Assembly (NCBI RefSeq): GCF_026157035.1
Contig: NZ_JANJZA010000001.1
Coordinates: forward strand, 1,467,001 to 1,531,000
Direction of reading: 5' to 3'
DNA length: 64,000 bases
From: Sphingomicrobium nitratireducens
GTDB taxonomy: Bacteria > Pseudomonadota > Alphaproteobacteria > Sphingomonadales > Sphingomonadaceae
The position numbers and the translations under genes are program-made. The notes beneath the pieces are model-generated. The model was not told the DNA's origin. It searched no databases and saw nothing but the letters and a program-made list of their open reading frames with translations. Positions within the stretch are counted from its first letter, which is position 1; every line of letters starts with the position of its first letter. Below are positions 3,450-21,833 of the stretch, one piece after another.

Positions 3450-3531
3450 ATTCTCAGTGCTGGAATTCCCGTCCCCGATAGGCTAACCGCCACTCGAAAT
3501 TTCCATTCCAGCCCAAGGACATTCGCGACCC

Positions 3532-5211: not shown

Positions 5212-5222
5212 TCCGACCGGGG

Positions 5223-5247
5223 GCCGGGCGCTTCTTCGGCGCCCGGC
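5223..5247. terminator. Convergent GC-rich stem-loop between ettA and the opposing gene
   Basis: A perfect 9-bp inverted repeat (GCCGGGCGC / GCGCCCGGC) with a 7-base loop TTCTTCG lies just after the ettA stop and just before the stop of the opposing gene. There is no clear T-run on either side, so it may be a weak bidirectional terminator or an mRNA 3' end stabiliser. Confidence 0.5.
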
Positions 5248-5248
5248 G

Positions 5249-5785
5249 CTACCCGTCGCCGCGATCGCGTTCTTCGGATATCCGGTCGGACGCCTCGTCA
5301 ATCCGGTAAAAAAGCCGGTCATGGACCGACCGTTCGATCCGCCCCGCCTCGAGCAGGGCATCGACGTCCTCGTGCGCCTGTTCGAGCTGCGCATCCGCTT
5401 CGTCGAGAAAATGCGTGCGCAGCGTATCGTCGAGCGTCGTCTTCATGTCGGGTGCGCGCTCCATCGCCGCCTCGAGCGCGCGCGTGATCGCTTCCTGGCG
5501 CGTCAGCGTCCCCGCCTCGATCTCGGGCTCGAAGGCTTCCATCTGCGCGGCGAAGACCGGGTCGGGCGAGGAGAGTGCATTGTCGAGGATGAGGTTCACG
5601 CGCGCCGTCGCATCGTCGACCGCGTCCTCGGCCTCCTGCACATATTGCTTGCTCTCGGCCGTGCTCGGGACAGGCTGTGGCCGCTCGTCATCGGAGAGCG
5701 CAAGTTCGATGCCGCCCGAATACATGGCGAGCCCCATGATGGCCGCGATCCCCGCGGCACCCATCCATCCCAGACTTTTCAGCAC
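5249..5785 (-). CDS. Uncharacterised single-pass membrane protein, helical
   Basis: I do not recognise a named family. 178 residues from a GTG start that shares one base with the stop of the upstream gene (TAG/GTG). An N-terminal membrane anchor (LKSLGWMGAAGIAAIMGLAMYS) is followed by about 150 acidic, Ala/Glu-rich residues predicted to be helical. The first 25 residues closely resemble the N-terminus of the gene at 6550-7029 (MLKGLLWAGATGVAAIAGF), and both have the same acidic helical body, suggesting paralogues. Probably in an operon with the coiled-coil gene at 5785-6159. Confidence 0.7.
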   Translation of the reverse strand: MLKSLGWMGAAGIAAIMGLAMYSGGIELALSDDERPQPVPSTAESKQYVQEAEDAVDDATARVNLILDNALSSPDPVFAAQMEAFEPEIEAGTLTRQEAITRALEAAMERAPDMKTTLDDTLRTHFLDEADAQLEQAHEDVDALLEAGRIERSVHDRLFYRIDEASDRISEERDRGDG

Positions 5786-6159
5786 TATGTCCTGCCCTTG
5801 CCCTTCTTCTTTTTCTTCTTCGGCTCGGCATCCTCGACGACCTTGAGTTCGATTTCAACGATCTCGTCGCCTTCCTTCGCCGCTTCGCGCGCACGCTGGG
5901 CGGCGCGCTCGGCCGCCGCCGCCGCCTGTTCGGCCGCTTCCAGGATCGCGATCCGGACACGCTCGGCAATGCTCGAGGCGTCCTGCCGCAGGCGCGCCGC
6001 TTCGCTTCTCGCCTGATCGACCGCCTCCAGCGCTTCCTCGAGCGCGACCGCGCGCGCTTCGGCCATCGCCGCGAGCGCCTCGTCGCGCGCTTCCGCAGCG
6101 GCGGCACGGGCCTTTTCGAAATGCGACCTTGCCCGGTTCCGGGCTTCTTGCTTGTCCAT
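5785..6159 (-). CDS. Ala/Glu/Arg-rich coiled-coil protein with polylysine tail
   Basis: Unrecognised 124-residue protein. Almost all of it is a long Ala/Glu/Arg helix (for example ARAAAAEARDEALAAMAEAR) likely to form a coiled coil, then a short acidic strand (EIVEIELKVVEDAEP) and a basic end with six lysines in a row. The ATG at 6159 is chosen over an upstream TTG (6165) because GGAGG sits 7 bases before it. No signal peptide or membrane segment. Its coupling with the downstream anchored protein suggests a partner role, but function is unknown. Low-complexity composition makes homology claims unsafe. Confidence 0.65.
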   Translation of the reverse strand: MDKQEARNRARSHFEKARAAAAEARDEALAAMAEARAVALEEALEAVDQARSEAARLRQDASSIAERVRIAILEAAEQAAAAAERAAQRAREAAKEGDEIVEIELKVVEDAEPKKKKKKGKGRT

Positions 6160-6265
6160 CTTCAAACCTCCGGTTACCGCCTTACTGTATCAGTATGGCA
6201 ATACACCCGCAAGTCGGAAGTGCGGCTCTTGCCTCGACGCGCGCGAGGGAAGACAAGGGACGACC

Positions 6266-6553
6266 ATGATCGCATTCGTCGCACCCCTCTTCAAATGGCC
6301 TGGCGGGAACTGGTACTTCGTGCGCCTGCCCGAGGAGGCGGCGATCGAAGCGCGTTTCGAGTCGGGCGGGTTGCGTGGCGGGTTCGGCTCGATCAAAGTC
6401 GCCGCGCGCGTCGGCCTGACCGAATGGCGCACCTCGATCTTCCCCGAAAAGGAAAGCGGGAGTTTCCTGCTCCCGATGAAGGCCGCGGTCCGCCATGCCG
6501 AAAGCCTGACCGAAGGGGAGGCGGTCGACGTCCGCCTGGACGTCGCAGGCTAG
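6266..6553 (+). CDS. DUF1905 domain protein
   Basis: 95 residues matching the small beta-barrel DUF1905 fold: an N-terminal FKWPGGNWYFVRLPEEAA segment, the KVAARVGLTEWRTSIFPEK middle and the end VRHAESLTEGEAVDVRLDV. The family pattern (F..g.W.fv.lP, kV...i....w.tsi.p, vR...gi..Gd.V.v.l) is well preserved. Function is not established for the family. The ATG at 6266 follows AAGGGACGACC. Divergent from the coiled-coil gene at 5785-6159, with about 100 bases between, and convergent with the next gene; its stop overlaps that gene's stop by four bases. Confidence 0.8.
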   Translation: MIAFVAPLFKWPGGNWYFVRLPEEAAIEARFESGGLRGGFGSIKVAARVGLTEWRTSIFPEKESGSFLLPMKAAVRHAESLTEGEAVDVRLDVAG

Positions 6554-7029
6554 TCGGCGACGACTCGCATGTCGGCAAGCGCGGTCTCGGCCGCGGCAAT
6601 GGCCTCCAGCGCCTCTTCGTAATCCTCGTCGCTCAAGTCGCCCGACTCGTGCTCCCGACGCAGGTCCTCCTGCGCCTGTTCGAGCTTGCGCCTTGCGCCG
6701 CTCACCGCCGGGCCGACTTCGCGCAAGGCAATGCCGGCGTCGCCGCCGACCATGATGCGGATGCGCTCGTTCTCGCCTTGGACATCGATCCTCTCGAGCC
6801 GGCTGACTGCACGTTCGATCGCCTGCTCGTAGGCATCCTCGGCGCGGATCTCGCCGCGGCGCGTGCGATCCTCGGCGCGGTCGAATTCCTCCTCGAACGC
6901 CGCCGATATGGCCGGACCGTGCTGCGCGATCTCATGCGATACGCGCGCGATTTCCTCATGGTTGTAGAGGACGAAACCCGCGATCGCGGCCACTCCGGTC
7001 GCCCCGGCCCACAGCAATCCCTTCAACAT
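6550..7029 (-). CDS. Uncharacterised single-pass membrane protein, helical (paralogue of 5249-5785)
   Basis: 159 residues. N-terminal anchor MLKGLLWAGATGVAAIAGFV, then an acidic/basic helical region (residues about 40-155) with heptad-like spacing. Start chosen at 7029 because TGGAGG lies 7 bases upstream; an in-frame start at 7083 is less likely. The N-terminus repeats that of the gene at 5249-5785, so the two are probably paralogues flanking the DUF1905 gene. Function unknown; the topology suggests a short N-terminal anchor with a long helical domain on one side of the inner membrane. Confidence 0.7.
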   Translation of the reverse strand: MLKGLLWAGATGVAAIAGFVLYNHEEIARVSHEIAQHGPAISAAFEEEFDRAEDRTRRGEIRAEDAYEQAIERAVSRLERIDVQGENERIRIMVGGDAGIALREVGPAVSGARRKLEQAQEDLRREHESGDLSDEDYEEALEAIAAAETALADMRVVAD

Positions 7030-7105
7030 CGCGCGCCTCCATTCGTGCGCACGACTATCGCGCTGCCCGGCGGGAAGGGTCAAGCATCGTCCTACGAACG
7101 GAGGC

Positions 7106-7258
7106 TCAACGGGGAAGCGTGTCTCCGGTCATCGCGGCGGTCGTGCGGGCGGCCAGGCGTTCATCGGCCTTGGGCACGCCCATCATCAGGGCCATTGCCG
7201 CACTGAACCCGGCCAACAGCGCCATGCCGCCGACCCAAGCCCGATCGTTCATGCTCAT
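7106..7258 (-). CDS. Small single-pass membrane protein
   Basis: A 50-residue reading frame with one hydrophobic stretch (VGGMALLAGFSAAMALMMG, about residues 9-27) and a basic/polar tail. GGGGAG sits 6 bases before the ATG at 7258; a second ATG at 7252 is possible. No family recognised. It lies upstream of the anchored helical gene on the same strand with a 76-base gap. Short length and lack of known homology keep confidence modest. Confidence 0.45.
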   Translation of the reverse strand: MSMNDRAWVGGMALLAGFSAAMALMMGVPKADERLAARTTAAMTGDTLPR

Positions 7259-7369
7259 TACCCGCTCCCCGCAACACTCGATCCGGAAGCGATGGCCAGG
7301 ACGGTTCCGGCTGGAAAGGGGACGGATAAGCACGGGTGAACGATTATCGTCCAGCCGAGTGCATACGAA

Positions 7370-7401
7370 GACGGGCCGCCCCGGCTAGAGGGCAGCCCGT
7401 C
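7370..7401. terminator. Stem-loop after the PPOX-fold gene
   Basis: Inverted repeat GACGGGC / GCCCGTC extended inward by GCCC / GGGC after one mismatch, with an 8-base loop. It lies downstream of the minus-strand gene that ends at 7421. No strong T-run follows, so termination is probable rather than certain. Confidence 0.45.
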
Positions 7402-7420
7402 GAGATGCTCGGATAACAAA

Positions 7421-7948
7421 TCAGTCGAGCGTCGTCGTGGTGCGATTATCTTCCTTGAATTCGTCACCCGGCTCCTTGCCGAGCATCGAAAGGGCGGCCG
7501 CCTTTAGCGTCGCGCCGGTATCGGCCTCCCAGATATCCGCCTTCTCTGTATCGAAGCGCAGCAGGACGAGGTTCGGATCGTCCTTGCCGCCTTCGAACCA
7601 GGCACCGATGATGGGATTCCACAACCGATCGATCACGGCCCGATCGTTGTCGCGCACGAGATTCCCATGGATATTGGCGAAGATGTCGTGTCCCTTCGAC
7701 GCGAAGGCGGCGACCGCGCGATGCCGCTGGCCCATGCCCTGGACGAGATGCTCGCGATCGTCGGCGAAGAAATAGATTGTGCGATTGCCTTCCTCTCCGT
7801 CGACCTGTGCGGTCATCGGACGGGTGCGGCTATCCTCGACGCCTTGCAGGCCGAGCATGATGAAAGGGCTCGAACCGAGCTCCTTCCAGAATTTTTTCTC
7901 AAGTTCCCGAGCGACTTCGGCGTCGCTTTTCTCATTCTTGAAGAACAT
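7421..7948 (-). CDS. Pyridoxamine 5'-phosphate oxidase-fold protein (general stress protein 26-like)
   Basis: 175 residues with the split-barrel flavin/F420-binding fold pattern of the COG3871 group: LEKKFWKELGSSPFIMLGLQ at the start, RPMTAQVDGEEGNRTIYFFA, then WNPIIGAWFEGGKDDPNLVLLRF near residues 110-132. Cytoplasmic and likely stress-related; the ligand (FMN or other) is not decided by sequence. AAGGAG is 8 bases before the ATG. Single-gene unit flanked by a stem-loop downstream. Confidence 0.85.
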   Translation of the reverse strand: MFFKNEKSDAEVARELEKKFWKELGSSPFIMLGLQGVEDSRTRPMTAQVDGEEGNRTIYFFADDREHLVQGMGQRHRAVAAFASKGHDIFANIHGNLVRDNDRAVIDRLWNPIIGAWFEGGKDDPNLVLLRFDTEKADIWEADTGATLKAAALSMLGKEPGDEFKEDNRTTTTLD

Positions 7949-8028
7949 GAACGCGTCTCCTTCCTTTGGCCCATCAACGGGCGGGGAAGGAGCAACGTTG
8001 CTCGCTCCGTCGACGCGGGAGCGGCAAT

Positions 8029-8745
8029 TCAGCGCAAACGGCGCACTTTCACGACATTGTCGCCGTTCGCCTTTACCTCGTACTGGTCGAGCGCCTTGAT
8101 CATGTCCTTGAGGCTGCGAAACCCGTAGTTGCGCACCGAGAAACTCGAGATCTGCGTCGCGCGCTGGCCAAGTTCGGACAATGTCGTGAAATTGTCCTCG
8201 TCGCGGGTCGAGGCGCGGAAGGCATCGCCGAGCACCTTGAGCAATTCCTCGTCGACCTTCTTGCCGCCGGTCTTGTCGTCGCTCGACCGCTCGGAAAGTT
8301 TCGAGACGTCGAAGAAGCGATTGCAGGCAGTCTTGAAGCTGATCGGCGCCTTGGCCGTGCCGAACCCGTAGACGGGCAGGCCCTGCTGACGGATGCGAAG
8401 GACGAGCGGCTGGAAGTCGCTGTCGCTCGACATGATGCCGAACCCGTCGACATTGCCGGCGTGCAGCAGGTCCATCGCCTCGATCACCATCAGCATGTCG
8501 GTCACCGACTTGCCCTTCACGATATCGAATTGCTGGACGGGAAAGATCGAGTAGTCGCCGCGCCGGTCGACCCAGCCCTTGAGCGCGGGCTTGCGCCAGT
8601 TGGCGTAGGCGCGGCGAATGTTGATCGTGCCGAGCTCGCCGAGCACCAGCAGCACCTCGTCGAGATGGTCGGGGCTGGCATTGTCCGCATCGATCAGGAG
8701 CGCGATGTTGCGCGCTTGCGGGTCAGGGTCGTTACGGCTGCTCAT
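8029..8745 (-). CDS. NYN-domain (PIN-like) RNase candidate with C-terminal OST-HTH/LOTUS domain
   Basis: 238 residues. The N-terminal NYN domain (residues about 12-150) shows ALLIDADNAS with its metal-binding aspartates, GKSVTDMLMVIEAMDLL and GIMSSDSDFQPLVLRIRQQG. The C-terminal part (about 165-235: VDEELLKVLGDAF, LGQRATQISSFSVRNYGFRSLKDMI) fits an OST-HTH/LOTUS RNA-binding module. Known family role: PIN-like nucleases acting on RNA; the specific target here is unknown. Divergent from the lipoprotein gene at 8854. Confidence 0.87.
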   Translation of the reverse strand: MSSRNDPDPQARNIALLIDADNASPDHLDEVLLVLGELGTINIRRAYANWRKPALKGWVDRRGDYSIFPVQQFDIVKGKSVTDMLMVIEAMDLLHAGNVDGFGIMSSDSDFQPLVLRIRQQGLPVYGFGTAKAPISFKTACNRFFDVSKLSERSSDDKTGGKKVDEELLKVLGDAFRASTRDEDNFTTLSELGQRATQISSFSVRNYGFRSLKDMIKALDQYEVKANGDNVVKVRRLR

Positions 8746-8853
8746 CGTTCATTCATTCCCATTCGTCTCACATAGCGAATGGGCGCGGGAACGAAACCGC
8801 TTTCTCGCACGTCCCTCCATTCGCACCACCCAACCCCTATGGGAGAAGTAAGC

Positions 8854-9183
8854 ATGAAGAAACTGGCACTGACCGCGGTCCTGGCGACCGGACTTTCGCT
8901 GACGGCCTGCGCGAGCGACCGTTATGGCTATGGCGACCCCTATCGCAGCACGCAGACCGAGCGCGCAGCCAAGGGCGCGGCGATCGGCGCGGCTGCCGGC
9001 GCGGTGGCCGGTGCGGTGATCCCGGGCGTGTCGACCGTCGAAGGCGCTGTCGCTGGCGCCGTGCTCGGCGGCGTCGCGGGCGCGGTCATCAAGGGCAAGC
9101 AATATTATCGCGATACGCGCGGCTACTGCTACTATGTCGATAGCAACGGCAATCCGGTCTACGACTACGAAGTGACCTGCTAA
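8854..9183 (+). CDS. Glycine-zipper outer-membrane lipoprotein
   Basis: 109 residues. Lipoprotein signal MKKLALTAVLATGLSLTAC with lipobox LTAC (Cys19). The body has a double glycine zipper (GAAIGAAAGAVAGAV and GAVAGAVLGGVAGAV), which in this family forms a membrane-embedded hairpin, then an aromatic tail (YCYYVDSNGNPVYDYEV). Start chosen at 8854, preceded by GGGAGAAG. Similar small lipoproteins are linked to envelope stress, but the exact role is unknown. Convergent with the carbonic anhydrase gene, 15 bases apart. Confidence 0.8.
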   Translation: MKKLALTAVLATGLSLTACASDRYGYGDPYRSTQTERAAKGAAIGAAAGAVAGAVIPGVSTVEGAVAGAVLGGVAGAVIKGKQYYRDTRGYCYYVDSNGNPVYDYEVTC

Positions 9184-9198
9184 GCGCAGGCGCCATGC

Positions 9199-9831
9199 TC
9201 AGACGGGGCGGAAGGTGTCTTCCGCCTCGTCGAGCAGATAAAGCTGTCCCTCGCTGATCGAGAAGTGACAGCCCAGCACCTTCAACGTTCCCGCTTCCTC
9301 GCGTTCGCGCACGAACGGGAAACTCCTCAGATTCTCGACCGACTTGCGGATCGCCGCTTCCTCGAGCAGGCGCGCAGCCTCCTCGTCGCGTCCGTGCTGC
9401 TCGGCAATATCGCCGGCGAGCGCGTCGACCTGTTCCATCCAGCGATGCACGAACCCGCCTTCGCCAGGCGCCGCATCGTGGAAGCAGCCCGTCAACGCGG
9501 CCATGATCCCGCCGCACTTCTCGTGCCCCATGACGATGATCTCGGGCACCTTGAGCTGGGTCACGGCGAATTCCAGCGCGGCCGAGACGCCATGACGTCC
9601 GCCATTGGCCTCGAACGGCGGCACGAGGTTGGCGACGTTGCGCACGACGAACATCTCGCCCGGATCGGTATCGAAGATGGTCGCAGGGTCGACCCGGCTG
9701 TCCGAGCAGGCGATAATGATCGCGCGCGGCGCCTGGCCTTCCGCGAGCCGCTTCCAGCTCTGTTCGGCGCCTGCGACCTTCTTGTCGCGAAAGCGGCGAT
9801 ACCCCTCGAGCAGATTGCCGAAACCCTTCAT
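9199..9831 (-). CDS. Beta-class carbonic anhydrase
   Basis: Zinc enzyme interconverting CO2 and bicarbonate in the cytoplasm; 210 residues. Zinc ligands Cys42 (ACSDSRVDP), His103 and Cys106 (GHEKCGGI) and the Asp44/Arg46 dyad are all present. The conserved gate region VRNVANLVPPFE follows. Start chosen at the ATG at 9831 (MKGFGNLLEGYRRF), not the long upstream in-frame extension, which crosses the neighbouring gene on the other strand. Monocistronic. Confidence 0.93.
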   Translation of the reverse strand: MKGFGNLLEGYRRFRDKKVAGAEQSWKRLAEGQAPRAIIIACSDSRVDPATIFDTDPGEMFVVRNVANLVPPFEANGGRHGVSAALEFAVTQLKVPEIIVMGHEKCGGIMAALTGCFHDAAPGEGGFVHRWMEQVDALAGDIAEQHGRDEEAARLLEEAAIRKSVENLRSFPFVREREEAGTLKVLGCHFSISEGQLYLLDEAEDTFRPV

Positions 9832-9969
9832 TCGACGTCTCCCTGTTTGTCGCCGCGCTAGGCAGGCGCACTGCAAATGGCAAGCGCAACCGTCTCCGCC
9901 GTTCGTCGAGCGTACCTTGACGCCCCTCATGGGGAGGCAGACAATCTGCGCCACGAAGGAGGAATTGCC

Positions 9970-10410
9970 ATGTCCAACTTTCGTTTCCTGCTGGTCACCG
10001 CGCCGTTCGCGCTGACTGCCGCCTGCGCGACTACCGAGACCCAGACCGCCTCGACGGGCCCAAACCTCGAGACCGTGTTCGTCGAGACAGTGCCCGCGGG
10101 CGTCACCGCGACGAGCTACTGGGGCGATCGGTGCGTCACGCCCTGCAATCTCAGGCTGTCCTCGTCGAAGGGCGGGGTGATCACGCTCGAGAAACAGGGC
10201 TATGCGGTCGAACAGCGCTTCGTGACGAGCGGGCTCGGCCATTATTCGCGCCCGCCGCGCATGTTCGGAAGCTACGGACCGCTGGTCGTCGAACCGCAAC
10301 CCGATCCCGGCGATGCGATGATCCAGTATCGCTACTGGCTGGGCCAGCCCGAAGGACCGTTCAGCTCGCTCGACGTGCATCGCGTGCTGGTCGAGATGAC
10401 ACCCGCCTGA
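9970..10410 (+). CDS. Putative lipoprotein of unknown function
   Basis: 146 residues. Hydrophobic N-terminus ending in a cysteine ([10 protein letters not shown]) suggests a lipoprotein, although the lipobox is not ideal. The rest contains [19 protein letters not shown] and [11 protein letters not shown], a short beta-rich domain reminiscent of PEGA-like or carboxypeptidase-regulatory-like lipoprotein folds; the two close cysteines (CVTPC) may form a disulphide. A strong AAGGAGG site precedes the ATG. No named family is claimed. Confidence 0.7.
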
Positions 10411-10462
10411 CGCGGGGGTCACAAGCCTTGAGAAGACGCATGCGCCCCGCTATGGCGCGCGC

Positions 10463-11398
10463 ATGAACGCACCCGTTACCCCGCCGACCGGCACGCCCAA
10501 GCAGCGCAAGCCGGACTGGATCCGCGTCAAGGCGCCCGTCTCGAAGGGCTATTCCGAAACGCGCAAGCTGATGCGCGACCTGGGCCTCGCGACGGTGTGC
10601 GAGGAAGCGGCCTGTCCCAATATCGGCGAGTGCTGGACCAAGAAGCACGCGACGGTGATGATCCTGGGCGATACGTGCACGCGTGCCTGCGCCTTCTGCA
10701 ACGTCAAGACGGGCATGCCGCGCGCGGTCGACCCCAAGGAGCCCGAGCATGTCGCGACCGCGGCGGCCGAGATGGGGCTTGAACACATCGTCATCACCAG
10801 CGTCGATCGCGACGACCTGCCCGATGGCGGCGCGGACCAGTTCGTCAAGGTGATCGAGCAGCTGCGCGACAAGACGCCCGACACGACGATCGAGATTCTC
10901 ACCCCCGATTTCCGCAACAAGCACGAGGCGGCGATCGAGAAGATCGTCGCCGCGCGACCCGACGTGTTCAATCACAACCTCGAAACCGTCCCGCGCCTCT
11001 ACCCGACGGTGCGCCCGGGCGCGCGCTATTACGCCTCGCTGCGCCTGCTCGAGACGGTCAAGAAGCTCGATCCCACCATCTTCACAAAGTCGGGAATCAT
11101 GGTCGGGCTGGGCGAGGAGCGGCTCGAAGTCCACCAGGTGATGGACGACATGCGCTCGGCCGACATCGATTTCCTGACCATGGGCCAGTATCTCCAGCCC
11201 ACGCCCAAGCATCACGTGGTCAAGGATTTCGTCACTCCCAAGGCGTTCGACGCCTACGCCTCGATCGCGCGGGCCAAGGGCTTCCTGCTGGTCGCCGCCT
11301 CGCCATTGACGCGCTCGAGCTATCACGCCGGCGACGACTTCAAGAAGATGCAGGACGCGCGCGCCAAGAAGGTGGCGCGGGCCGGGGGCGCTCGCTGA
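10463..11398 (+). CDS. lipA: Lipoyl synthase
   Basis: Radical-SAM enzyme inserting two sulphurs into protein-bound octanoyl groups to make lipoyl cofactors. 311 residues. Both clusters are visible: the auxiliary cluster cysteines in [13 protein letters not shown] and the SAM cluster CX3CX2C in [10 protein letters not shown]; the C-terminal RSSYHAGD motif supplies the auxiliary serine ligand. Translationally coupled to the next gene (TGATG). The lipA/COQ10-like pairing is common in alphaproteobacteria. Confidence 0.97.
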
Positions 11399-11856
11399 TG
11401 CCGCGTCACAGCGAGACGAAGCATCTTCCCTACACGCCTGAACAATTGTTCGACCTCGTCGCGGACGTCGCCCGCTACGACGAGTTCCTGCCCTGGGTGA
11501 GCGCGGTGCGCGTGCGTTCGAACAGCGAGACCGAGATGCTTGCCGACCTCGTCGTCGGCTTCAACGCCTTCAAGGAGCGCTTCACCAGCCGCGTAACCAA
11601 GAAGCGGCCGCACGAGATCACGGTCGAATATGTCGAAGGGCCCTTGAAGTATTTGAAAAACGACTGGAAGTTCGAGCCTGCCGAGGGCGGGACCGACGTC
11701 CATTTCTGCGTCGACTTCGCGTTCAAGAGCCGGATTTTCGAAAGTCTTGCAGGCTCGATGTTCGATCGTGCGCTCCGCCGAATGACCAACGCCTTCGAAC
11801 AGCGCGCTGCCGAGCTTTACGGCAGCAGCAAGTCGAGCGCCGCCAGCGCGGCCTGA
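11398..11856 (+). CDS. COQ10/START-domain protein (RatA-like)
   Basis: 152 residues of the START-like lipid-binding fold: TKHLPYTPEQLFDLVADVARYDEFLPWV at the start, VEGPLKYLKNDW in the middle, VDFAFKSRIFESL near the end. In this family the pocket binds ubiquinone (Coq10) and the E. coli relative RatA has been reported as a ribosome-association toxin; the respiratory role is more plausible here next to lipA. Its 3' end overlaps the convergent cinA-type gene by 40 bases. Confidence 0.88.
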   Translation: MPRHSETKHLPYTPEQLFDLVADVARYDEFLPWVSAVRVRSNSETEMLADLVVGFNAFKERFTSRVTKKRPHEITVEYVEGPLKYLKNDWKFEPAEGGTDVHFCVDFAFKSRIFESLAGSMFDRALRRMTNAFEQRAAELYGSSKSSAASAA

Positions 11857-12308
11857 AGCCGCACCGAGGCGCGGCCCGCCGACGCATCGAACAGTTCGCG
11901 CCGCGACGTCACGCCGCGAGCATCGGCACATGCGAACCACACCGTCCCGACCGGCTTTTCCGCGCTTCCGCCGCTGGGACCCGCAATTCCCGTGATGGAC
12001 ACCGCCACATCGGCGCCCGAGCGCTCGCGCGCTCCTGACGCCATCGCTTCGGCGACCTCGCTGCTGACCGCGCCATGGCTCTCGAGGAGGGCAGGGGGGA
12101 CACCCAGCATCGCCACCTTGGCGTCGTTGGAATAGGTCACCGCGCCCGACAGCAGTACGTCGGACGAGCCCGGGATCTCGGTGAGCGCAGCGGCGACCAG
12201 CCCACCCGTACAGCTTTCCGCGGTGGCGACGGTTCGCTCCGCCTCGCGGTTGGTCGCCACGACTGCCGCCGCCTTGTCGGCGAGGATCGGGGGAAGGAGC
12301 TGGCTCAT
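11817..12308 (-). CDS. CinA C-terminal domain protein (nicotinamide-nucleotide amidase type)
   Basis: 163 residues forming the stand-alone CinA C-terminal domain: [54 protein letters not shown] and [11 protein letters not shown], the full PncC-type active-site pattern. Known family activity is deamidation of NMN in NAD recycling. The start overlaps the ispDF stop by four bases (ATGA). The N-terminal MoCF-like domain of full-length CinA is absent, as in PncC. Confidence 0.9.
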
Positions 12309-13450
12309 GCGGGCATCCGTACGTTGGCGACCGCCTGGCAGGCGATGCCCTCGCGCCGTCCGGTAAAGCCGAGTTTCTCGGTCGTGGTCGCCTTGACGCT
12401 GACCTCTCCCGCCGACAGCCCGAGGATGCGTGCGATATTGGCCTGCATGGCCTCGCGATGCGGTCCGACCTTGGGCGCCTCGCAGATCAGCGTCGCATCG
12501 ACATGATCGACCATGCCACCCTTGTTGCGTACGAGGCTCGCGGCATGGGCGAGGAAGGTCTCGCTATCCGCGCCCTTCCATTTGGGATCGGACGGCGGAA
12601 AATGCTGGCCGATGTCGCCGAGCGCCGCCGCGCCCAGCAAGGCATCGGTGATGGCGTGCAAGAGAACGTCCGCATCGCTATGACCCGAAAGGCCTTTTTC
12701 GTGCGGCACCGCCACCCCGCCGAGCATCACGGGCCCGTCGCCCGCGAAGCCGTGGACGTCGAAGCCCATGCCGGTGCGAGGGATCATCGTCGCGGCCAGC
12801 CGCTGCTGCGCCGCCGCGAAATCCTCCGCGCTCGTCAATTTGTCGAGCATCCTGTCTCCCTCGACCAGTGTCACCTCGCCGCCGAACGCGCGTACCACCT
12901 GCGCCTCGTCGGTCGGCTCTTCGCCCGTCCAGGCGTCGTAGGCGCGGCGCAGCACGTCCGCGCGAAAGGCCTGCGGCGTCTGGATGCGCACGATCTCGCT
13001 TCGATCGACCGTGCCGCCCAACGTTTCGCCATGACGTCGGGCGAGCGTGTCGACCGAGACAAGGGCAGGGGTCGCGCCCGCCGCTTCGTCGAGCGCCGCG
13101 ACCAGTGCATCCACGACGTGCGACGGGCAAAAGGGGCGCGCCGCGTCGTGGATCATCACGTGCTCGGCCGAGACCGCAGCCAACCCGTTGCGAACGCTCT
13201 GCGATCGGGTCGCGCCGCCGACAATGAAATCGCCGACATCGCGGTCGCCCAGCGCGTCGCGCGCCATGACCTCTTGCCCCGCACCGATCACCACGCGCAC
13301 GGCCTCCACCAGCGGATGTGACGCCAATACGTCGACCGCGTGCGCGAGCACCGCCTTTCCGGCGAGCGAGCGATACTGTTTGGGGGTCTCGCCGCCCATG
13401 CGCGAGCCTTGGCCGGCAGCGACGATCAGGGCGGTCACGGGGCGTGTCAT
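12305..13450 (-). CDS. ispDF: Bifunctional IspD/IspF, MEP isoprenoid pathway
   Basis: 381 residues. The N-terminal IspD cytidylyltransferase (residues 1-220) has the CTP-binding loop [16 protein letters not shown] and the [10 protein letters not shown] segment. The C-terminal IspF MECDP synthase (225-381) has [40 protein letters not shown] and the end [19 protein letters not shown]. The two enzymes catalyse non-consecutive steps of the MEP pathway; the fusion is common in alphaproteobacteria. Divergent from dusB and coupled to the downstream cinA-type gene. Confidence 0.96.
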
Positions 13451-13514
13451 CGCCCTTGCCTCTAGCCTGCCTATTCATTGCACTGAAAGCGCTTTTTCCC
13501 TAAGGGCGCGGCCC

Positions 13515-14513
13515 ATGAGCCGCATCAAGCCCATCAAGATCGGTCCGATCACGATCGAGGACCCCGTCATCCTTGCCCCGATGACGGGCGTGACCGACGT
13601 GCCGTTCCGCAAGATCGTCAAGCGCTACGGCTGCGGTCTCACGGTCAGCGAAATGATCGCGAGCGAGGCGATGATCCGCGAGACCAAGCAGTCGATCCAG
13701 AAGGCGACTTGGGACCCGAGCGAGGAGCCGGTGTCGCTCCAGCTGGCCGGGTGCGAGCCCGAGCGCATGGCCGAGGCCGCCAAGCTCAACGAGGACAAGG
13801 GCGCCGCGATCATCGACATCAACATGGGCTGCCCCGTAAAGAAGGTCGTCAACGGCTATGCCGGTAGCTCGCTGATGCGCGACCTGCCGCTCGCGGCCAG
13901 CCTGATCGAGGCGACGGTCAAGGCGGTCAGCGTGCCGGTCACGGTCAAGATGCGCATGGGCTGGTGCCACGACAGCCTGAACGCTCCCGAACTTGCGCGC
14001 ATCGCCGAGGACCTGGGCGCGCAGATGATCACCGTCCACGGTCGCACCCGCAACCAGATGTACAAGGGCAGCGCCGACTGGGCGTTCATCGCGAAGGTCA
14101 AGGAAGCGACCTCGCTGCCGGTCATCGCCAATGGCGACATCAACAGCGTCGAGGACGCGCATGCAGCGCTCGACCAGTCGGGCGCGGACGGGGTGATGGT
14201 CGGACGCGGCGCCTATGGCAAGCCGTGGCTGCTCGGCCAGGTCATCGCCAATCTCAAAGGCGAGGGCGACAGGCCCGACCCGTCGATGGACGAGCAGCTC
14301 GACGTCATCCTCGAACAATATGACGCCATGCAGGCGCTCTACGGGCGGATGACGGGGGTCAATCTCGCGCGCAAGCATATCGGCTGGTACACCAAGGGGC
14401 TCGATGGCTCTGCCGACTTCCGCAACCGCGTAAATCAGGAAGACGACCCCGAGACGGTCAGGGCGATGCTGCGCGACTTCTATCGCCCATGGCTGGCCCG
14501 GGACGCAGCCTGA
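13515..14513 (+). CDS. dusB: tRNA-dihydrouridine synthase DusB
   Basis: FMN enzyme reducing uridines in the tRNA D-loop; 332 residues. Seen: FMN-binding [14 protein letters not shown], catalytic-cysteine motif [44 protein letters not shown] and [11 protein letters not shown]. Start taken at the ATG at 13515, where the conserved N-terminus begins; the longer frame upstream lies inside ispDF. It precedes ntrYX, as in many alphaproteobacteria, but the usual intervening ntrB and ntrC are missing. Confidence 0.95.
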
Positions 14514-14584
14514 GCCGCGGCGTCGGCGCGCACCGCAACAGGTGTGTTTTTTGTGCAACGCTTCCGTGCTAGGGCATTTGCCGC

Positions 14585-16849
14585 ATGGACGCTTCCTCGA
14601 CCGATTCTGACGCTCTCGTCGCTGTCGCGAACGAAGACGATGCGCGCCTCGACAAACGGTTGAGAATCGCAACCTGGGTTGCCGGGCTGCTGCTCGCGGT
14701 GACCCTGGCCTATTCGGCCGACCTTCTCCTTCACGAACACGAACCCGGCCAGCTCGTGACGCCGCCGATGATCGCGTTGCTGATGGTTGCCAACCTGCTG
14801 CCGGCGATCGCGTTGATGGTGCTGTTGTCGCGCAAGATCGCCCACGCGAGGGCACGCCGCGAAGGGGTGGGGACGGGCAAGCTCCACACGCGCCTCGTCG
14901 CCTTGTTCTCGGTGATCGCGGCGGTCCCGACCGTGGTAGTCGCGATCTTCGCCTCGCTGCTGATCCAGTCGGGGCTCGAATTCTGGTTCTCCGAACGCGC
15001 GCGCTCGATGCTCGAAAATTCGGTCGAGCTGGCCGAGAGCACCTATCGCAACGAGCTGTTCCTCGTGTCGGACGAAGTCACGACGATGGCGGGCGACCTG
15101 TCGGGTTACCTCCAGGAAATCCCTGTCGACAGCCCGCAATTCGGCGAAGGCCTGTCGTTCCAGACCTACCAGCGCGCGCTCAACGAGACGGCGGTCCTCA
15201 CCATCGACGAAGAGGGGGAAATCCGTACTTTCGCGGCCGCCAACATCTATGACGGCATGCTATCGCCCGAAGCGATTCTTCCCGCGGCCAAGGACCTCGA
15301 AGGCGGCGATGCAGTCGGCGTCGAGGCGGAAGGGCGCATTGCGGTGCTCACCCAGCTGCCCGGGGTCGAGAACGGCTATGTCTATGGCGCGCGGATCATC
15401 GACAGCGAAATCCAGGCGCAGATCGACCGCGCCGACGACGTGCTCGCGACCTACCGCTCGCTGCTCGCCAAGTCGCGCACCAACCAGCTCCAGTTCAATG
15501 CCGCCCTGTTCTTCGGGGCGATCCTGATCGTCGCGCTCGCCATCGCCGCTGCGCTCAAGCTCGCCGATCGTCTCGCCCGGCCCGTCGGCGAACTGGTCGA
15601 GGCGGCGGGCCGCGTGGAGGAAGGCGACTTCTCCGCGCGCGTGGCCGAATTGGGCGGGACGGACGAAATCGCCACGCTCGCCACCGCCTTCAACCGGATG
15701 ACAGGACGGATCGAGGAACAGACGGGGGCGCTGCTGGCCGCGAACAGCCAGCTCGATACCCGCCGCGCCTTCATCGAGGCGGTTCTGTCCTCGGTCACCG
15801 CAGGAGTCATCGCGCTCGACGCGGAAGATCGCATCCTCCTCACCAACCGCTCTGCGGCCACCCTCCTCGGCGGCAGCGCGGAAGAGCTAGAAGGGCGCGA
15901 CCTGACCGCGACCAGCCCCGAGCTCGACGAGTTCATGGAAGGCGATGCGCAGGAGGCCAACGTGACGCTGCCGTCGGAGACCGGGCCGCGCACGCTGGCG
16001 GTCAAGCGAGTGCGCTATGCCGACGGCGCCGTGCTGACCTTCGACGACATCACCGACCAGCTGTCCGACCAGCGCCGCGCGGCCTGGTCCGACATCGCGC
16101 GCCGCATCGCGCACGAGATCAAGAATCCGCTGACCCCGATCCAGCTCGCCGCCGAGCGGCTTCAACGCCGCTATGGCGACCAGGTGGGGGACGAAACGTT
16201 CGGGAGACTGACCGACACGATCGTGCGCCAGGTCGGCGACCTGCGGCGCATGGTCGACGAATTCTCCAACTTCGCGCGCATGCCCAAGCCGGTGTTCCGC
16301 GAGGAGAATATCCAGGACATCGCGCGCGCCGCGCTTTTCCTCCACGAGGTCGCGCATCCCGGCGTCACCTTCACGATCGATCCCGCGCACGGCGACATCC
16401 GCCTCGTATGCGATCGCCGCCAGATGGCGCAGGCGCTGACCAACATCGTCAAGAACGCGGTCGAGGCGATCGAGGGGCGTCGCAAGAAAGGCGAGGCGCA
16501 TCCCGACGGGGATCGTGTCGACATCGCGATCGAGCGGCCGGAAGGCGATGTGGTCATCAACGTGATGGATACCGGCGTCGGCCTACCCGAGGATCGCCAG
16601 CGGCTGACCGAGCCCTACATGACCACGCGTGTGCGCGGTACGGGGCTCGGATTGGCGATCGTCAAGAAGATCGTCGAGGAACATCTGGGCGACATCGCCT
16701 TTTTGGACAGGGCAGGGGGCGGCACGCACGTCCGCATCCACCTGCCCGCAGACCGGCTGGCAGAACTCGCCACCGAATCCCCGCAGGCCCCCGCCGCACG
16801 CCGCGGCGAGGACGATGAATATGACGAGATAGACGAGGATCCTGCCTGA
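14585..16849 (+). CDS. ntrY: NtrY-type membrane sensor histidine kinase
   Basis: 754 residues. Several N-terminal membrane helices (about 33-50, 60-80, 105-130) and another near 305-328 bracket an extracytoplasmic sensor part; then HAMP (about 330-380), PAS (about 390-480), HisKA with phospho-acceptor His in HEIKNPLTPIQLAAERL, and a HATPase domain with NIVKNAVEAIEG, DTGVGLPED and GTGLGLAIVKKI. Overlaps ntrX by one base (TGATG). Family roles include nitrogen and redox/respiratory regulation. Partner is NtrX immediately downstream. Confidence 0.94.
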   Translation: MDASSTDSDALVAVANEDDARLDKRLRIATWVAGLLLAVTLAYSADLLLHEHEPGQLVTPPMIALLMVANLLPAIALMVLLSRKIAHARARREGVGTGKLHTRLVALFSVIAAVPTVVVAIFASLLIQSGLEFWFSERARSMLENSVELAESTYRNELFLVSDEVTTMAGDLSGYLQEIPVDSPQFGEGLSFQTYQRALNETAVLTIDEEGEIRTFAAANIYDGMLSPEAILPAAKDLEGGDAVGVEAEGRIAVLTQLPGVENGYVYGARIIDSEIQAQIDRADDVLATYRSLLAKSRTNQLQFNAALFFGAILIVALAIAAALKLADRLARPVGELVEAAGRVEEGDFSARVAELGGTDEIATLATAFNRMTGRIEEQTGALLAANSQLDTRRAFIEAVLSSVTAGVIALDAEDRILLTNRSAATLLGGSAEELEGRDLTATSPELDEFMEGDAQEANVTLPSETGPRTLAVKRVRYADGAVLTFDDITDQLSDQRRAAWSDIARRIAHEIKNPLTPIQLAAERLQRRYGDQVGDETFGRLTDTIVRQVGDLRRMVDEFSNFARMPKPVFREENIQDIARAALFLHEVAHPGVTFTIDPAHGDIRLVCDRRQMAQALTNIVKNAVEAIEGRRKKGEAHPDGDRVDIAIERPEGDVVINVMDTGVGLPEDRQRLTEPYMTTRVRGTGLGLAIVKKIVEEHLGDIAFLDRAGGGTHVRIHLPADRLAELATESPQAPAARRGEDDEYDEIDEDPA

Positions 16850-18228
16850 TGCCCCTTGAAGTGCTGGTCGTCGACGACGAAGCCGATATTCGCGAACTGG
16901 TCTCGGGCGTGCTCGAGGACGAAGGCTATAGCGTGCGCACGGCCGGCGACAGCAGCGGGGCCCTCGACGCGATCGAACAGCGTCGCCCGCAACTCGCCCT
17001 GCTCGACGTATGGTTGCAGGGCTCGAAGCTCGACGGGCTCCAGCTGCTCGAGGAGATCAAGCGGCGCGACGCGACGCTGCCGTGCATCATGATCTCGGGT
17101 CACGGCAATCTCGATACCGCGGTAGCGGCCGTGCGCGCCGGTGCGGTCGATTTCATCGAAAAGCCGTTCGAGGCCGAGAAATTGCTCCACCTCGTGGCGC
17201 GCGCGACCGAAACCGACCGGTTGCGGCGAGAGAACGAGAAATTGAAGGCCCAGGCGGGCCACGAGGAACAGCTCGAGGGCACGTCCGCGGCAATCAACCA
17301 GGTGCGCGCCACGCTCAAGCGGGTCGCGCCGACCGGAAGCCGAGTGATGATCACCGGTCCCGCCGGTGTCGGCAAGGAAATCGCGGCCCGCATGATCCAC
17401 CAGTGGAGCCCGCGCGCACAGGCCCCGTTCGTCACCGTCTCCTCGGCGATGATGGAACCCGAACGGGTCGAGGAGGAACTGTTCGGAATCGAGGCGGACG
17501 GCGTGGCACGGCCGGGCCTGCTCGAGCAGGCGCATGGCGGGACACTGTTCCTCGACGAGATCGCGGACATGCCGCAGACCACGCAGGCCAAGATCCTGCG
17601 CGTGCTGACCGACCAGAGCTATACGCGCGTCGGCGGGCAGCGCCCGGTCAAGGTCGACGTGCGCGTCCTTTCGGCCACCTCTCGCGACCTAGCCGAAGAG
17701 ATCGAGGCAGGCCGCTTTCGCGAAGACCTGTTCTACCGCCTCAACGTCGTGCCGGTGAACATCCCGCCGCTGGCCGAACGGCGCGAGGACATCCCCGTGC
17801 TGGTCGACCATTTCCTCGCCCGCTACGCCGCCGATCGCCGCATCGGGGTTCCTTCGATCAGCGACGAGGCGCTTGCCGCGCTGCAGGCGCACGAATGGCC
17901 GGGCAACGTGCGCCAGCTGAGGAACATCATCGAGCGGACCATGATCCTGACGCCAGGCGACCGCGCCAGCTGCATCGAAATCGACCTCCTGCCGCCCGAA
18001 ATCACGGAATCGGGTGGGTCGAGCAGCGCCACCAGTCAGGTCGCGATGATGGGCAGTCCGCTGCGCGAGGCCCGCGAGAATTTCGAACGCGAGTATCTCA
18101 AAATCCAGATCCGGCGCTTCTCCGGCAATATCAGCCGTACCGCCGCCTTCATCGGGATGGAGCGCTCTGCACTACACCGCAAGCTGAAGGCGCTCGGGAT
18201 CACCGACAAACGCGCCGACGAGAATTAA
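16849..18228 (+). CDS. ntrX: NtrX-type response regulator lacking the GAFTGA motif
   Basis: 459 residues: receiver domain with phospho-acceptor Asp53 (LALLDVWLQG), an AAA+ domain (about 140-370) and a Fis-type helix-turn-helix near 425-455 (NISRTAAFIGMERSALHRKL). The AAA+ Walker A-like loop GPAGVGKE and GGTLFLDEIADMP are present, but where sigma-54 activators carry GAFTGA this protein reads ELFGIEADGVARPGLLEQ. Known biology: GAFTGA contacts sigma-54, so this NtrX probably regulates without it. Confidence 0.93.
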   Translation: MPLEVLVVDDEADIRELVSGVLEDEGYSVRTAGDSSGALDAIEQRRPQLALLDVWLQGSKLDGLQLLEEIKRRDATLPCIMISGHGNLDTAVAAVRAGAVDFIEKPFEAEKLLHLVARATETDRLRRENEKLKAQAGHEEQLEGTSAAINQVRATLKRVAPTGSRVMITGPAGVGKEIAARMIHQWSPRAQAPFVTVSSAMMEPERVEEELFGIEADGVARPGLLEQAHGGTLFLDEIADMPQTTQAKILRVLTDQSYTRVGGQRPVKVDVRVLSATSRDLAEEIEAGRFREDLFYRLNVVPVNIPPLAERREDIPVLVDHFLARYAADRRIGVPSISDEALAALQAHEWPGNVRQLRNIIERTMILTPGDRASCIEIDLLPPEITESGGSSSATSQVAMMGSPLREARENFEREYLKIQIRRFSGNISRTAAFIGMERSALHRKLKALGITDKRADEN

Positions 18229-18240
18229 GACTTCCTTGCA

Positions 18241-18666
18241 ATGCCGAGCGACAAGCCTCTAGATATCCAGAATATTTTCCTGAATGAGTGTCGGAAAGAA
18301 GGAACTTCCGTCACGCTTTTCCTGCTCAAGGGCATCAGGCTGCAGGGGCGCATTGCGGGGTTCGACCCGTTCGCCGTGCTCGTCAAGCGGCAGGGCGAGG
18401 AGCAACTCGTCTACAAACACGCCATCTCGACGATCCAAGGGCGACTGGACGGCCCCATCCCCGAGCCATCCGGGGAGGGGGAGGGACTGCAGGACAGTTT
18501 CCTTTCGCGGCTCGACGGCGGTGCCGTCTCGCTGTTTCTCACCAACGGGGTGCGGCTCCACGGCAGGATGATGGCCCATGACCGATACTGCCTGCTGATC
18601 GAGGAAGCGCCGGGTCGCATCCAGCTGGTCTACAAGCACGCCATGTCGACGCTCGAAGGCGCCTGA
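18241..18666 (+). CDS. hfq: RNA chaperone Hfq with two tandem Sm domains
   Basis: 141 residues instead of about 75-90. The first Sm domain (residues 5-67) has the typical start LDIQNIFLNECRKEG, LFLLKGIRLQGRIAGFD and YKHAISTI; the second (about 80-140) has LFLTNGVRLHGRMMAHD and YKHAMSTL. Hfq pairs small RNAs with mRNAs as a hexameric ring; a double protein could build the ring from three chains. Such tandem Hfq is known in some sphingomonads. The order hfq-hflX after ntrYX is standard. Confidence 0.95.
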   Translation: MPSDKPLDIQNIFLNECRKEGTSVTLFLLKGIRLQGRIAGFDPFAVLVKRQGEEQLVYKHAISTIQGRLDGPIPEPSGEGEGLQDSFLSRLDGGAVSLFLTNGVRLHGRMMAHDRYCLLIEEAPGRIQLVYKHAMSTLEGA

Positions 18667-18670
18667 GACG

Positions 18671-19963
18671 ATGGCAGTGTTCAACCGCGACGACGAGGGC
18701 GCAGGTGGATCGCGCGCGCTGATCGTGGTGCCGGACATCGCGGGGAGCGCGCAATCGCGGTCGAACGAGGCTCGGATCGAGGAAGCCGTCGGGCTGGCGG
18801 CGGCGATCGGGATCGAGGTGTCAGCAACGATGACGTTTCGCGTTCGCCAGGTGCGTCCGGCGACCCTGCTGGGCGGCGGCCAGGTCGACGAAGTGGCGCA
18901 GACCGCCGACGCCGAAGACGTCGAGCTGGTCATCGTCGATGCGGGACTGACGCCGGTCCAGCAGAAGACGCTCGAGGAACGCACCGGTCGCAAGGTGATC
19001 GACCGGACGGGGCTGATCCTCGAGATTTTCGGCGAGCGTGCCGCGACGGCGGAAGGGCGCCTGCAGGTCGAGCTCGCGCATCTGGACTACCAGGCCGGGC
19101 GACTGGTGCGCAGCTGGACCCACCTCGAGCGCCAGCGCGGCGGGTTCGGCTTTCTCGGCGGTCCGGGCGAAACGCAGATCGAGGCCGATCGCCGCATGAT
19201 CCGAGACCGCATGGCCAAGATCCGCCGCGAGCTCGAGCAGGTGAAGAAGACCCGCGCGCTCCACCGCGACCGTCGCCAGCGCGCGCCGTGGCCGGTGGTG
19301 GCACTGGTAGGGTATACCAATGCGGGAAAGTCGACCCTGTTCAACCGGCTCGCGGGTGCGGGCGTGATGGCCGAGGACCTTTTGTTCGCGACGCTCGACC
19401 CGACCATGCGCCAGATCCGCATTCCGGGGCACGACAAGGTGATCCTGTCCGACACGGTCGGCTTCGTCTCCGACCTTCCGACCCAGCTGGTGGCCGCCTT
19501 CCGTGCGACGCTGGAAGAAGTCGAGAGCGCCGATCTCATCCTTCACGTCCGCGACATCGCGCACGAGGACTCCGAGGCGCAGCGCGAGGACGTCGGGGAC
19601 GTGCTTGCCGAGTTGGGACTCGACGCCGAGAACGGGCCGCCACAGCTCGAAGTGTGGAACAAGATCGACCTCCTCCACGGCGACGAGCGCCGCGCCGTAC
19701 TGGGCGAGGCGGCGCGGCGCGACGACGTCGCCGTGGTCAGCGCGATCAGCGGGGAGGGGGTCGACGAGTTGAAGGCGGCCATCGGCGACTGGCTCGCGCC
19801 CGAAACCAACGTCCACGAGATCGACCTCGATGCGGGCGACGGCGCGCGGTTGAGCTGGCTTCACCAGCGCGGCAAGGTGATGGAGCAGGTGGTCGACGGC
19901 GACAGGCTGCGCCTGAAGGTCGAGCTCAGCCCCGACAATTGGGCGCGCTATCAAGCGCTATGA
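18671..19963 (+). CDS. hflX: Ribosome-splitting GTPase HflX
   Basis: 430 residues. N-terminal HflX domain with LLGGGQVDEVAQ and the glycine-rich FGFLGGPGETQIEADRR, then the G domain: G1 GYTNAGKSTLFNRL, G3 DTVGFVSDLP, G4 WNKIDL. Known role: GTPase that rescues stalled or heat-damaged ribosomes. Starts four bases after the hfq stop, so co-transcribed. Its last 13 bases overlap the opposing mazG. Confidence 0.96.
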   Translation: MAVFNRDDEGAGGSRALIVVPDIAGSAQSRSNEARIEEAVGLAAAIGIEVSATMTFRVRQVRPATLLGGGQVDEVAQTADAEDVELVIVDAGLTPVQQKTLEERTGRKVIDRTGLILEIFGERAATAEGRLQVELAHLDYQAGRLVRSWTHLERQRGGFGFLGGPGETQIEADRRMIRDRMAKIRRELEQVKKTRALHRDRRQRAPWPVVALVGYTNAGKSTLFNRLAGAGVMAEDLLFATLDPTMRQIRIPGHDKVILSDTVGFVSDLPTQLVAAFRATLEEVESADLILHVRDIAHEDSEAQREDVGDVLAELGLDAENGPPQLEVWNKIDLLHGDERRAVLGEAARRDDVAVVSAISGEGVDELKAAIGDWLAPETNVHEIDLDAGDGARLSWLHQRGKVMEQVVDGDRLRLKVELSPDNWARYQAL

Positions 19964-20706
19964 GTGGCTTTCTCGCGCTGCCAGAGTTCTTCCTGTTGCT
20001 CGAGGCTCATGTCGGTGAAGCCCGGCGCCTGCTCGATGGCGCGAAAGCGCGCCTCGAACTTGCGATTGGCCTTGCGTAGCGCCTCTTCCGCATCGACCTT
20101 GAGAAAGCGTGCGAAGTTGACGACTGCGAACAGCAGGTCGCCGACCTCTTCCTCGCGCTCGTCGTGGGTGGCGGCGCGGTCGATCTCGTCCAGTTCCTCG
20201 GCGATCTTGTCCTTGGGGCCATCGATGGTCGGCCAGTCGAACCCGGTGCGCGCGGCGCGTTTCTGCAGTTTCTGCGCGCGTTCGAGTGCGGGCAGGGCAA
20301 GCGCGACACCTGAAAGGGCGCTGGGATCGGGGTCCGCGGCCCGCTCGGCTGCCTTGATCTCTTCCCACAGGTAATGCCCGCCATGCTCCGCGTCGCCGAA
20401 GATATGCGGGTGACGGCGCTCCATCTTGTCGCAGATACGCGCGAACACGTCGTCGAGCGTGAAATGGCCCGCTTCCTCGGCCATCGTCGCGTGAAACACG
20501 ACCTGGAGCTGGAGATCGCCCAGCTCGTCGGCGAGGCCCGCCATGTCCTTGCGATGGATGGCGTCGGCAACCTCGTAGGCTTCCTCGATCGTGTAAGGCG
20601 CGATGGTCTCGAACGACTGGACGCTGTCCCATTCGCACCCGGTTTCGGGGTCGCGCAGGCGGCGCATGATCTCGACAAGGCGATTGAGGCTCACTGACGT
20701 CTCCAT
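19951..20706 (-). CDS. mazG: Nucleoside triphosphate pyrophosphohydrolase MazG
   Basis: 251 residues with two MazG domains. The first carries YTIEEAYEVADAI and LADELGDLQLQVVFHA (metal-binding Glu/Asp), the second IAEELDEIDRAA and EEEVGDLLFAVVNFARFL. The family hydrolyses (d)NTPs, cleansing non-canonical nucleotides and limiting the (p)ppGpp response. ATG at 20706 is preferred over a TTG four codons upstream. Tail-to-tail with hflX. Confidence 0.94.
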   Translation of the reverse strand: METSVSLNRLVEIMRRLRDPETGCEWDSVQSFETIAPYTIEEAYEVADAIHRKDMAGLADELGDLQLQVVFHATMAEEAGHFTLDDVFARICDKMERRHPHIFGDAEHGGHYLWEEIKAAERAADPDPSALSGVALALPALERAQKLQKRAARTGFDWPTIDGPKDKIAEELDEIDRAATHDEREEEVGDLLFAVVNFARFLKVDAEEALRKANRKFEARFRAIEQAPGFTDMSLEQQEELWQREKATHSA

Positions 20707-20753
20707 GGCTGGCAGCAACGCGATGCCATGATCTGCGCGAGCCTGCCAAGCCT

Positions 20754-21011
20754 TCAGTCCGTGCCGCGCTCCAGATTTCGTTCGATCGCGCGCAAAGCGT
20801 CATAGGAGCGAAAGGCGATGATCAGGCGCTCGAAAAACAGGCGCACGATCAATGGCCCCAGCAAAAGCGGGAAGGGCCACGTCCAGTTGCCGAGCTTGTA
20901 CAGCACCCAGGCGCCATAAAGACAGCCTGCAATGCCAGCCCAGAGAAGGATTTGCGTGACCGCGGGTGCGATCATCCGCCTGAAGGTGAGATATTCGAGC
21001 AAGGGCGCCAT
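20754..21011 (-). CDS. DUF4282 small membrane protein
   Basis: 85 residues starting MAPLLEYLTFRRMIAPAV. Two membrane helices (about 12-32 and 40-60) and the family segment LLGPLIVRLFFERLIIAFRS, which fits DUF4282. GGAGAAG precedes the ATG at 21011. Function unknown. Its promoter region is the AT-rich segment that holds the candidate dif site. Confidence 0.75.
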   Translation of the reverse strand: MAPLLEYLTFRRMIAPAVTQILLWAGIAGCLYGAWVLYKLGNWTWPFPLLLGPLIVRLFFERLIIAFRSYDALRAIERNLERGTD

Positions 21012-21136
21012 GGACTTCTCCCGTGTCGTGAGCCGGAGAAAACGCAACGCGTGCCTATCCTAACGAGAGGACCGATTCACCGGGAGGGGAGCCCGTCATT
21101 TTCGCTAGAAATAACCGGCGGAATTGCCCATTCCAT

Positions 21137-21164
21137 AAGTCTGATAATATGTATTATGTAAAGT
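21137..21164 (+). other. Candidate dif site (XerC/XerD chromosome-dimer resolution)
   Basis: A 28-base element with the dif layout: 11-base arm AAGTCTGATAA, 6-base centre TATGTA, 11-base arm TTATGTAAAGT. The right arm matches the E. coli XerD arm (TTATGTTAAAT) at 9 of 11 positions and the inner ends ATAA/TTAT are inverted as in known sites; the left (XerC) arm is more diverged (5 of 11), as is usual. It sits in the only clearly AT-rich intergenic stretch of the region (21012-21245), which otherwise holds only the promoter area of the DUF4282 gene. Whole-chromosome uniqueness cannot be tested here. Confidence 0.72.
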
Positions 21165-21245
21165 GATGTCACGTAGAAAATTGAACGTGCATCTTAATTT
21201 TTACTCATATTGACAGCGGCTTAGCCAATGAAAGTCAGAGAAAGT

Positions 21246-21833
21246 CTAAGGCTGCAAGACCAGCCATCGACCTTCAACGCCCCAGCGCTCCAGCGACGAC
21301 AGATAATTCATGCCCAGCACGTTGATGTCCTTCTGCTGCGTCACGTGCACGAGCACGTTGTCGCGGCTGATCGGGCCGACGCTCAGATTGTCCGCGCGCC
21401 CGCGCGCGACCTCGACAAGACCGTTGCCGGTGCGCACGGCCTGGCGGCCATGCTCTGACACGGCCACGCCCGCCACGGCGGCAGTCGCGCTGTCGATCGT
21501 CGTGATCGTCGCACCGCTGTCGACGAGGAACTCGACGGGAACGCCGTTGACGCGGCCTTCGACCCAGAAATGTCCGTCAATGGCCATCGGGATGCGGATT
21601 TCGGCTTCCTCGACGACCGGCGCGCCGGTCGCTTCGGACTTGAGACGCTGTGCGAGGTAGCCGAGATCGTCGCGGAAGCTGAACAGGATGAAGCCGGCAC
21701 CGAAGATCGCGATCCATGCCAGCGCCATTTTCGCCATCTTCGCAAGCGGTTCGCGCCGCGCCATGAGCGAGCCGACGACGAGCATCATCGCCATCAGGAT
21801 GTAGACGCTGCCGAGCATCCAGTCGTTGCTCAA
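21246..21833 (-). CDS. Membrane-anchored retropepsin-like aspartic protease (TIGR02281 type)
   Basis: 195 residues. Two N-terminal membrane helices (about 8-25 and 35-52), then a clan AA protease domain (about 80-195) with the active-site motif FLVDSGATITTID and a conserved tail NVLGMNYLSSLERWGVEG. Known family: single-motif aspartic proteases acting as dimers in the envelope; substrate unknown. TTG start overlapping the upstream stop by four bases (TTGA), with GGAGGTGGAG in front. Last gene of the dac-tmk-holB-metG-tatD operon. Confidence 0.86.
   Translation of the reverse strand: MSNDWMLGSVYILMAMMLVVGSLMARREPLAKMAKMALAWIAIFGAGFILFSFRDDLGYLAQRLKSEATGAPVVEEAEIRIPMAIDGHFWVEGRVNGVPVEFLVDSGATITTIDSATAAVAGVAVSEHGRQAVRTGNGLVEVARGRADNLSVGPISRDNVLVHVTQQKDINVLGMNYLSSLERWGVEGRWLVLQP

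Follow-up and report, generated by a model that had tools for sequence, protein, structure and literature searches.

Chromosomal dif sites lie near the end of replication, where XerC and XerD separate joined daughter chromosomes. The locus considered here raises the question of whether a 28-bp sequence in a 64,000-nucleotide stretch of the Sphingomicrobium nitratireducens chromosome (the window; C1:1467001-1531000) is such a site, as the original prediction proposed from its 11-6-11 layout, and whether the window therefore spans the terminus. The sequence is present on the plus strand exactly as it had been written, in that layout, and lies in a gap of approximately 200 bp between a small DUF4282-like open reading frame and a gene for a TIGR02281 aspartic protease, both on the minus strand. 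This gap is AT-rich amid DNA of about 65% GC, as had been described, and only 6 of the 28 bases of the site are G or C. The site, its parts and its neighbours are as follows.

21137-21164, plus strand: dif, 28 bp, AAGTCTGATAA-TATGTA-TTATGTAAAGT (exact sequence check)
21137-21147, plus strand: XerC arm of dif, AAGTCTGATAA (sequence and 41-site consensus)
21148-21153, plus strand: central hexamer of dif, TATGTA (sequence)
21154-21164, plus strand: XerD arm of dif, TTATGTAAAGT (sequence and identity to published arms)
19951-20718, minus strand: mazG, left neighbour of dif, context (NF007113, 302 bits versus a cut-off of 208)
20754-21047, minus strand: DUF4282-like small open reading frame, context (Pfam PF14110, 25.9 bits, just below the cut-off of 27)
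21246-21833, minus strand: TIGR02281 clan AA aspartic protease, right neighbour of dif, context (84.6 bits versus a cut-off of 57.95)

With its 28 bp, 11-6-11 arrangement and conserved XerD arm, the site resembles known dif sites of the XerCD type. The XerD arms of the Caulobacter, Bordetella and Geobacter sites are identical to TTATGTAAAGT (Carnoy and Roten 2009, PMC2731167 Table 1), and that of Escherichia coli, TTATGTTAAAT, differs from it at 2 of 11 positions, which bears out the 9/11 identity claimed beforehand. The dif of Caulobacter crescentus (AAGATCGACTTTGTAATTTATGTAAAGT) has this same 11-nt arm, the same 28-bp layout and an intergenic position at the terminus (PMC2731167 Table 1), but its XerC arm and centre differ from those of the window site, the Caulobacter XerC arm being the more divergent. 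The E. coli dif (GGTGCGCATAATGTATATTATGTTAAAT) shares the inner arms ATAA and TTATGT and is likewise the point of convergence of GGGNAGGG KOPS, whereas its outer XerC arm and centre are unlike ours. In the same order as our organism, the predicted site of Novosphingobium aromaticivorans (AGGATTGATAATAATCATTATGTAAATA) is intergenic, has the 11-6-11 layout and shares a GATAATA...ATTATGTAAA core (PMC2731167), but departs from the window site in its outer arm positions and centre. The predicted dif of Brucella melitensis chromosome II (AAATCAGATAATATGTATTATGGAACAT) has an identical GATAATATGTATTATG core, running from the inner XerC arm through the inner XerD arm (PMC2731167), and differs in the outer XerD arm (GAACAT versus TAAAGT in the window site). 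Carnoy and Roten 2009 give only one Sphingomonadales site in their representative table (PMC2731167), dif sites have been predicted in 641 organisms by Kono et al. 2011 (PMC3025954), and our literature search for a sphingomonad dif found nothing. A search of named genomes for an exact 22-mer also matched contigs of Ignavibacteria, Neomarinimicrobiota and Gemmatimonadota.

A genome-wide search had been expected to return one site, and one close match was found with both patterns that we used. When the 2,266,505 bases of the genome (3 contigs) were searched with NNTNCGNATAANNNNNNTTATGTTAANT, allowing up to 3 mismatches, the only match was the sequence at 21137-21164, and the reversed control of this pattern gave 0 matches across the whole genome under the same threshold. 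Since there was a single match genome-wide and none for the reversed control, the match is more than chance. With the pattern GATAA-N6-TTATGTAAA, the site was the sole match without mismatches; the runner-up had 2 mismatches and the remainder 3. This pattern gave 15 matches in total versus 15 for its control, so the mismatched ones occur at the control rate. The site is thus single-copy in its own genome, and it is single-copy in the relatives too.

The genome also encodes the proteins that would act at such a site: candidates for XerC and XerD, and an FtsK with a gamma domain.

C1:1928345-1929184: XerD-like protein (260 bits to TIGR02225; best solved relative the XerD structure 1a0p)
C1:1100339-1101214: XerC-like protein (best model TIGR02224, 277 bits)
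C1:298599-298775: gamma domain of an FtsK with alpha, motor and gamma domains

Because neither Xer protein reaches the strict XerC or XerD equivalog cut-off, the two names, taken from the best-scoring models, are best assignments; the XerD-like protein passes the Xer subfamily model NF001399. About 81 kb from dif lies the gene for a third tyrosine recombinase, a more distant one (49 bits to TIGR02225; G000:C1:1569497-1570228, L065).

The best independent evidence for the dif call is the polarity flip of the FtsK-orienting polar sequences (KOPS), which we scored as the E. coli-type octamer GGGNAGGG.

2263-20876, plus strand: 11 left KOPS-like octamers GGGNAGGG, all toward dif (starts 2263, 2524, 7072, 12089, 13063, 16710, 18472, 18478, 19751, 20290, 20869)
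24453-61930, minus strand: 15 right KOPS-like octamers, all toward dif (low ends 24453, 25269, 25782, 26091, 30097, 32189, 32613, 34445, 48062, 52565, 54842, 54978, 55104, 56946, 61923)

In the window, the ratio of forward to reverse octamers is 11:0 to the left of dif and 0:15 to its right, and the best change point, determined from KOPS alone, falls between 20869 and 24453, an interval that contains dif. No comparable flip was found for letter permutations of the motif. We also sampled KOPS and GC skew in the window and in 20 stretches of 20 kb spread across the genome. The sampled stretches from C1:324 kb to 1424 kb, from the origin side toward dif, gave a ratio of 40:4, and those of the other arm 1:29. 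Across 41 loci, from our genome and 40 relatives, the ratios were 139:4 to the left of dif and 4:165 to its right. KOPS thus converge on the site, and the flip in polarity foreseen at this point was found both in the window and across the genus.

The position of the site relative to the origin points the same way. In our genome parB lies at C1:288 kb, and in all 14 relatives assembled as a single contig the distance from dif to parB was 0.469-0.497 of the chromosome; the chance that random placement would put all 14 that far away is approximately 1e-17 if the genomes are independent, an independence that is only partial. In 6 of these 14 genomes dif and the parB gene are on the same strand and in 8 on opposite strands, a mixture that suggests inversions around the origin or terminus. 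An inflection in GC skew had also been anticipated, and this check, like the other computable ones that had been proposed, was favourable genome-wide: the mean skew of the sampled stretches changes sign between the replichores (+0.014 on the first arm, -0.020 on the second; Mann-Whitney p = 0.007), but within the window the skew is noisy, with no clean inflection at 21.15 kb. Location at the terminus is therefore indicated by the origin-opposite position and the arm-to-arm change in skew sign, and the exact shift point is not placed by the skew in the window. The claim that the window spans the terminus holds insofar as dif sits at the KOPS junction and on the far side of the chromosome from the origin; that forks physically meet at dif is something Kono et al. 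2011 argue against in general (PMC3025954).

One near-exact copy of dif was found in 58 of 60 same-genus genomes, and a match was missing from two, G012 and G038, one of them a draft in 290 contigs and the other 75% complete. Matches to this particular pattern were near the control level in distant families of the order. Comparison of the loci of 40 relatives (41 sites with our own) revealed that information content averages 1.70 bits per position inside the 28-mer versus 0.23 to its left and 0.16 to its right, the borders coinciding with the edges of dif. The consensus of the XerC arm is A A G T (A/C) T G A T A A, with positions 3, 4 and 7-11 invariant, and TTATGT of the XerD arm is invariant across the 41 genomes, while the inner positions of the hexamer vary (TATGTA, TATGCA, TATATA). 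Variation within the genus is found at the centre and at the outer bases of the arms, as in dif generally; the centre of published dif sites is also variable (PMC2731167).

These data bear on whether the site instead serves as promoter or operator of the minus-strand DUF4282-like open reading frame and mazG, its likeness to dif being incidental. A sigma-70-like match (GTGACA-17-TATTAT, minus strand, 21172-21144) does overlap dif, and mazG lies on the XerC side at all 41 sites, a conserved synteny that would suit such a role. However, the 28-mer does not include the -35 box, which is unconserved, information content drops to background right from the 28-bp edges, and a DUF4282-like open reading frame near dif was detected only in the window's own genome among those checked. 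In the relatives the mazG match starts anywhere from 0.74 to 4.5 kb from dif, and a promoter would explain neither the KOPS flip nor the origin-opposite position. As conservation is limited to the 28-mer, we rejected the promoter-like match; this reading is largely refuted and most improbable. Separately, a hairpin and T-rich stretch to the right of dif (~21165-21200) was considered as a terminator and rejected: it folds no better than shuffled sequences (z = -0.16), and its sequence is unconserved in relatives.

On the XerD side, the aspartic-protease gene is present in 38 of 40 relatives, with phnP-like, tatD, metG, holB and tmk genes usually coming next. Of the two exceptions, G023 lacks the protease only; G044 (L084) lacks the protease, phnP, tatD, metG, holB and tmk within the 10 kb taken, with its left side intact, which suggests a rearrangement or large insertion near dif. 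In several relatives the protease gene beside dif is duplicated in tandem (L023, L025, L027, L031). Around a quarter of the relatives carry 1-4 kb of extra DNA between dif and mazG (L071, L074, L080, L083, L084, L090, L097, L103, L105), and L088 has approximately 2.7 kb extra to the right of dif instead. It seems unlikely that the mazG/dif/aspartic-protease gap is a genus-wide fixed address of the terminus, possibly kept by constraint from KOPS-dense flanks or neighbouring genes, that would accept inserted genes mainly on the XerC side.

Integration at dif is known for elements that exploit the Xer system, and together with the extra genes found between mazG and dif in several relatives this would fit an attachment site of a mobile element, or a relic of a plasmid-type cer/psi site, in place of the chromosome's own dif. 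Against this, no second convincing dif-like copy was found within the 20-kb loci of the relatives, both pattern searches gave no other dif in the genome, and the site is single-copy, at one locus genus-wide, and at the KOPS junction. We consider the chance that the site belongs to such an element to be very small.

Taken together, the uniqueness of the site, the KOPS flip, its conservation in the genus and its origin-opposite position uphold the original prediction, and the 28-mer at 21137-21164 is almost certainly the chromosomal dif of a sphingomonad, with a function that we infer. By analogy with the Xer/dif systems of E. coli and Caulobacter, XerC and XerD would be expected to bind the site and catalyse recombination there, with activation by FtsK. 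Sister chromosomes that had undergone an odd number of crossovers would be left joined as a dimer needing resolution. FtsK at the division septum, oriented by GGGNAGGG, would pump DNA toward the KOPS polarity flip, and its gamma domain would activate XerD bound to TTATGTAAAGT. Strand exchange across TATGTA by XerD, together with XerC on AAGTCTGATAA, could then convert the dimer into monomers.

Although clear, the site is an ordinary new example of a textbook element and is not surprising. For the genus, the comparison provides a clean dif consensus, about AAGTMTGATAATATRYATTATGTWAARY, and reveals that the E. coli-type KOPS GGGNAGGG is strongly polarised in these sphingomonads. For this chromosome, the position of dif is fixed to the base, marking the terminus region, which is useful for annotation.
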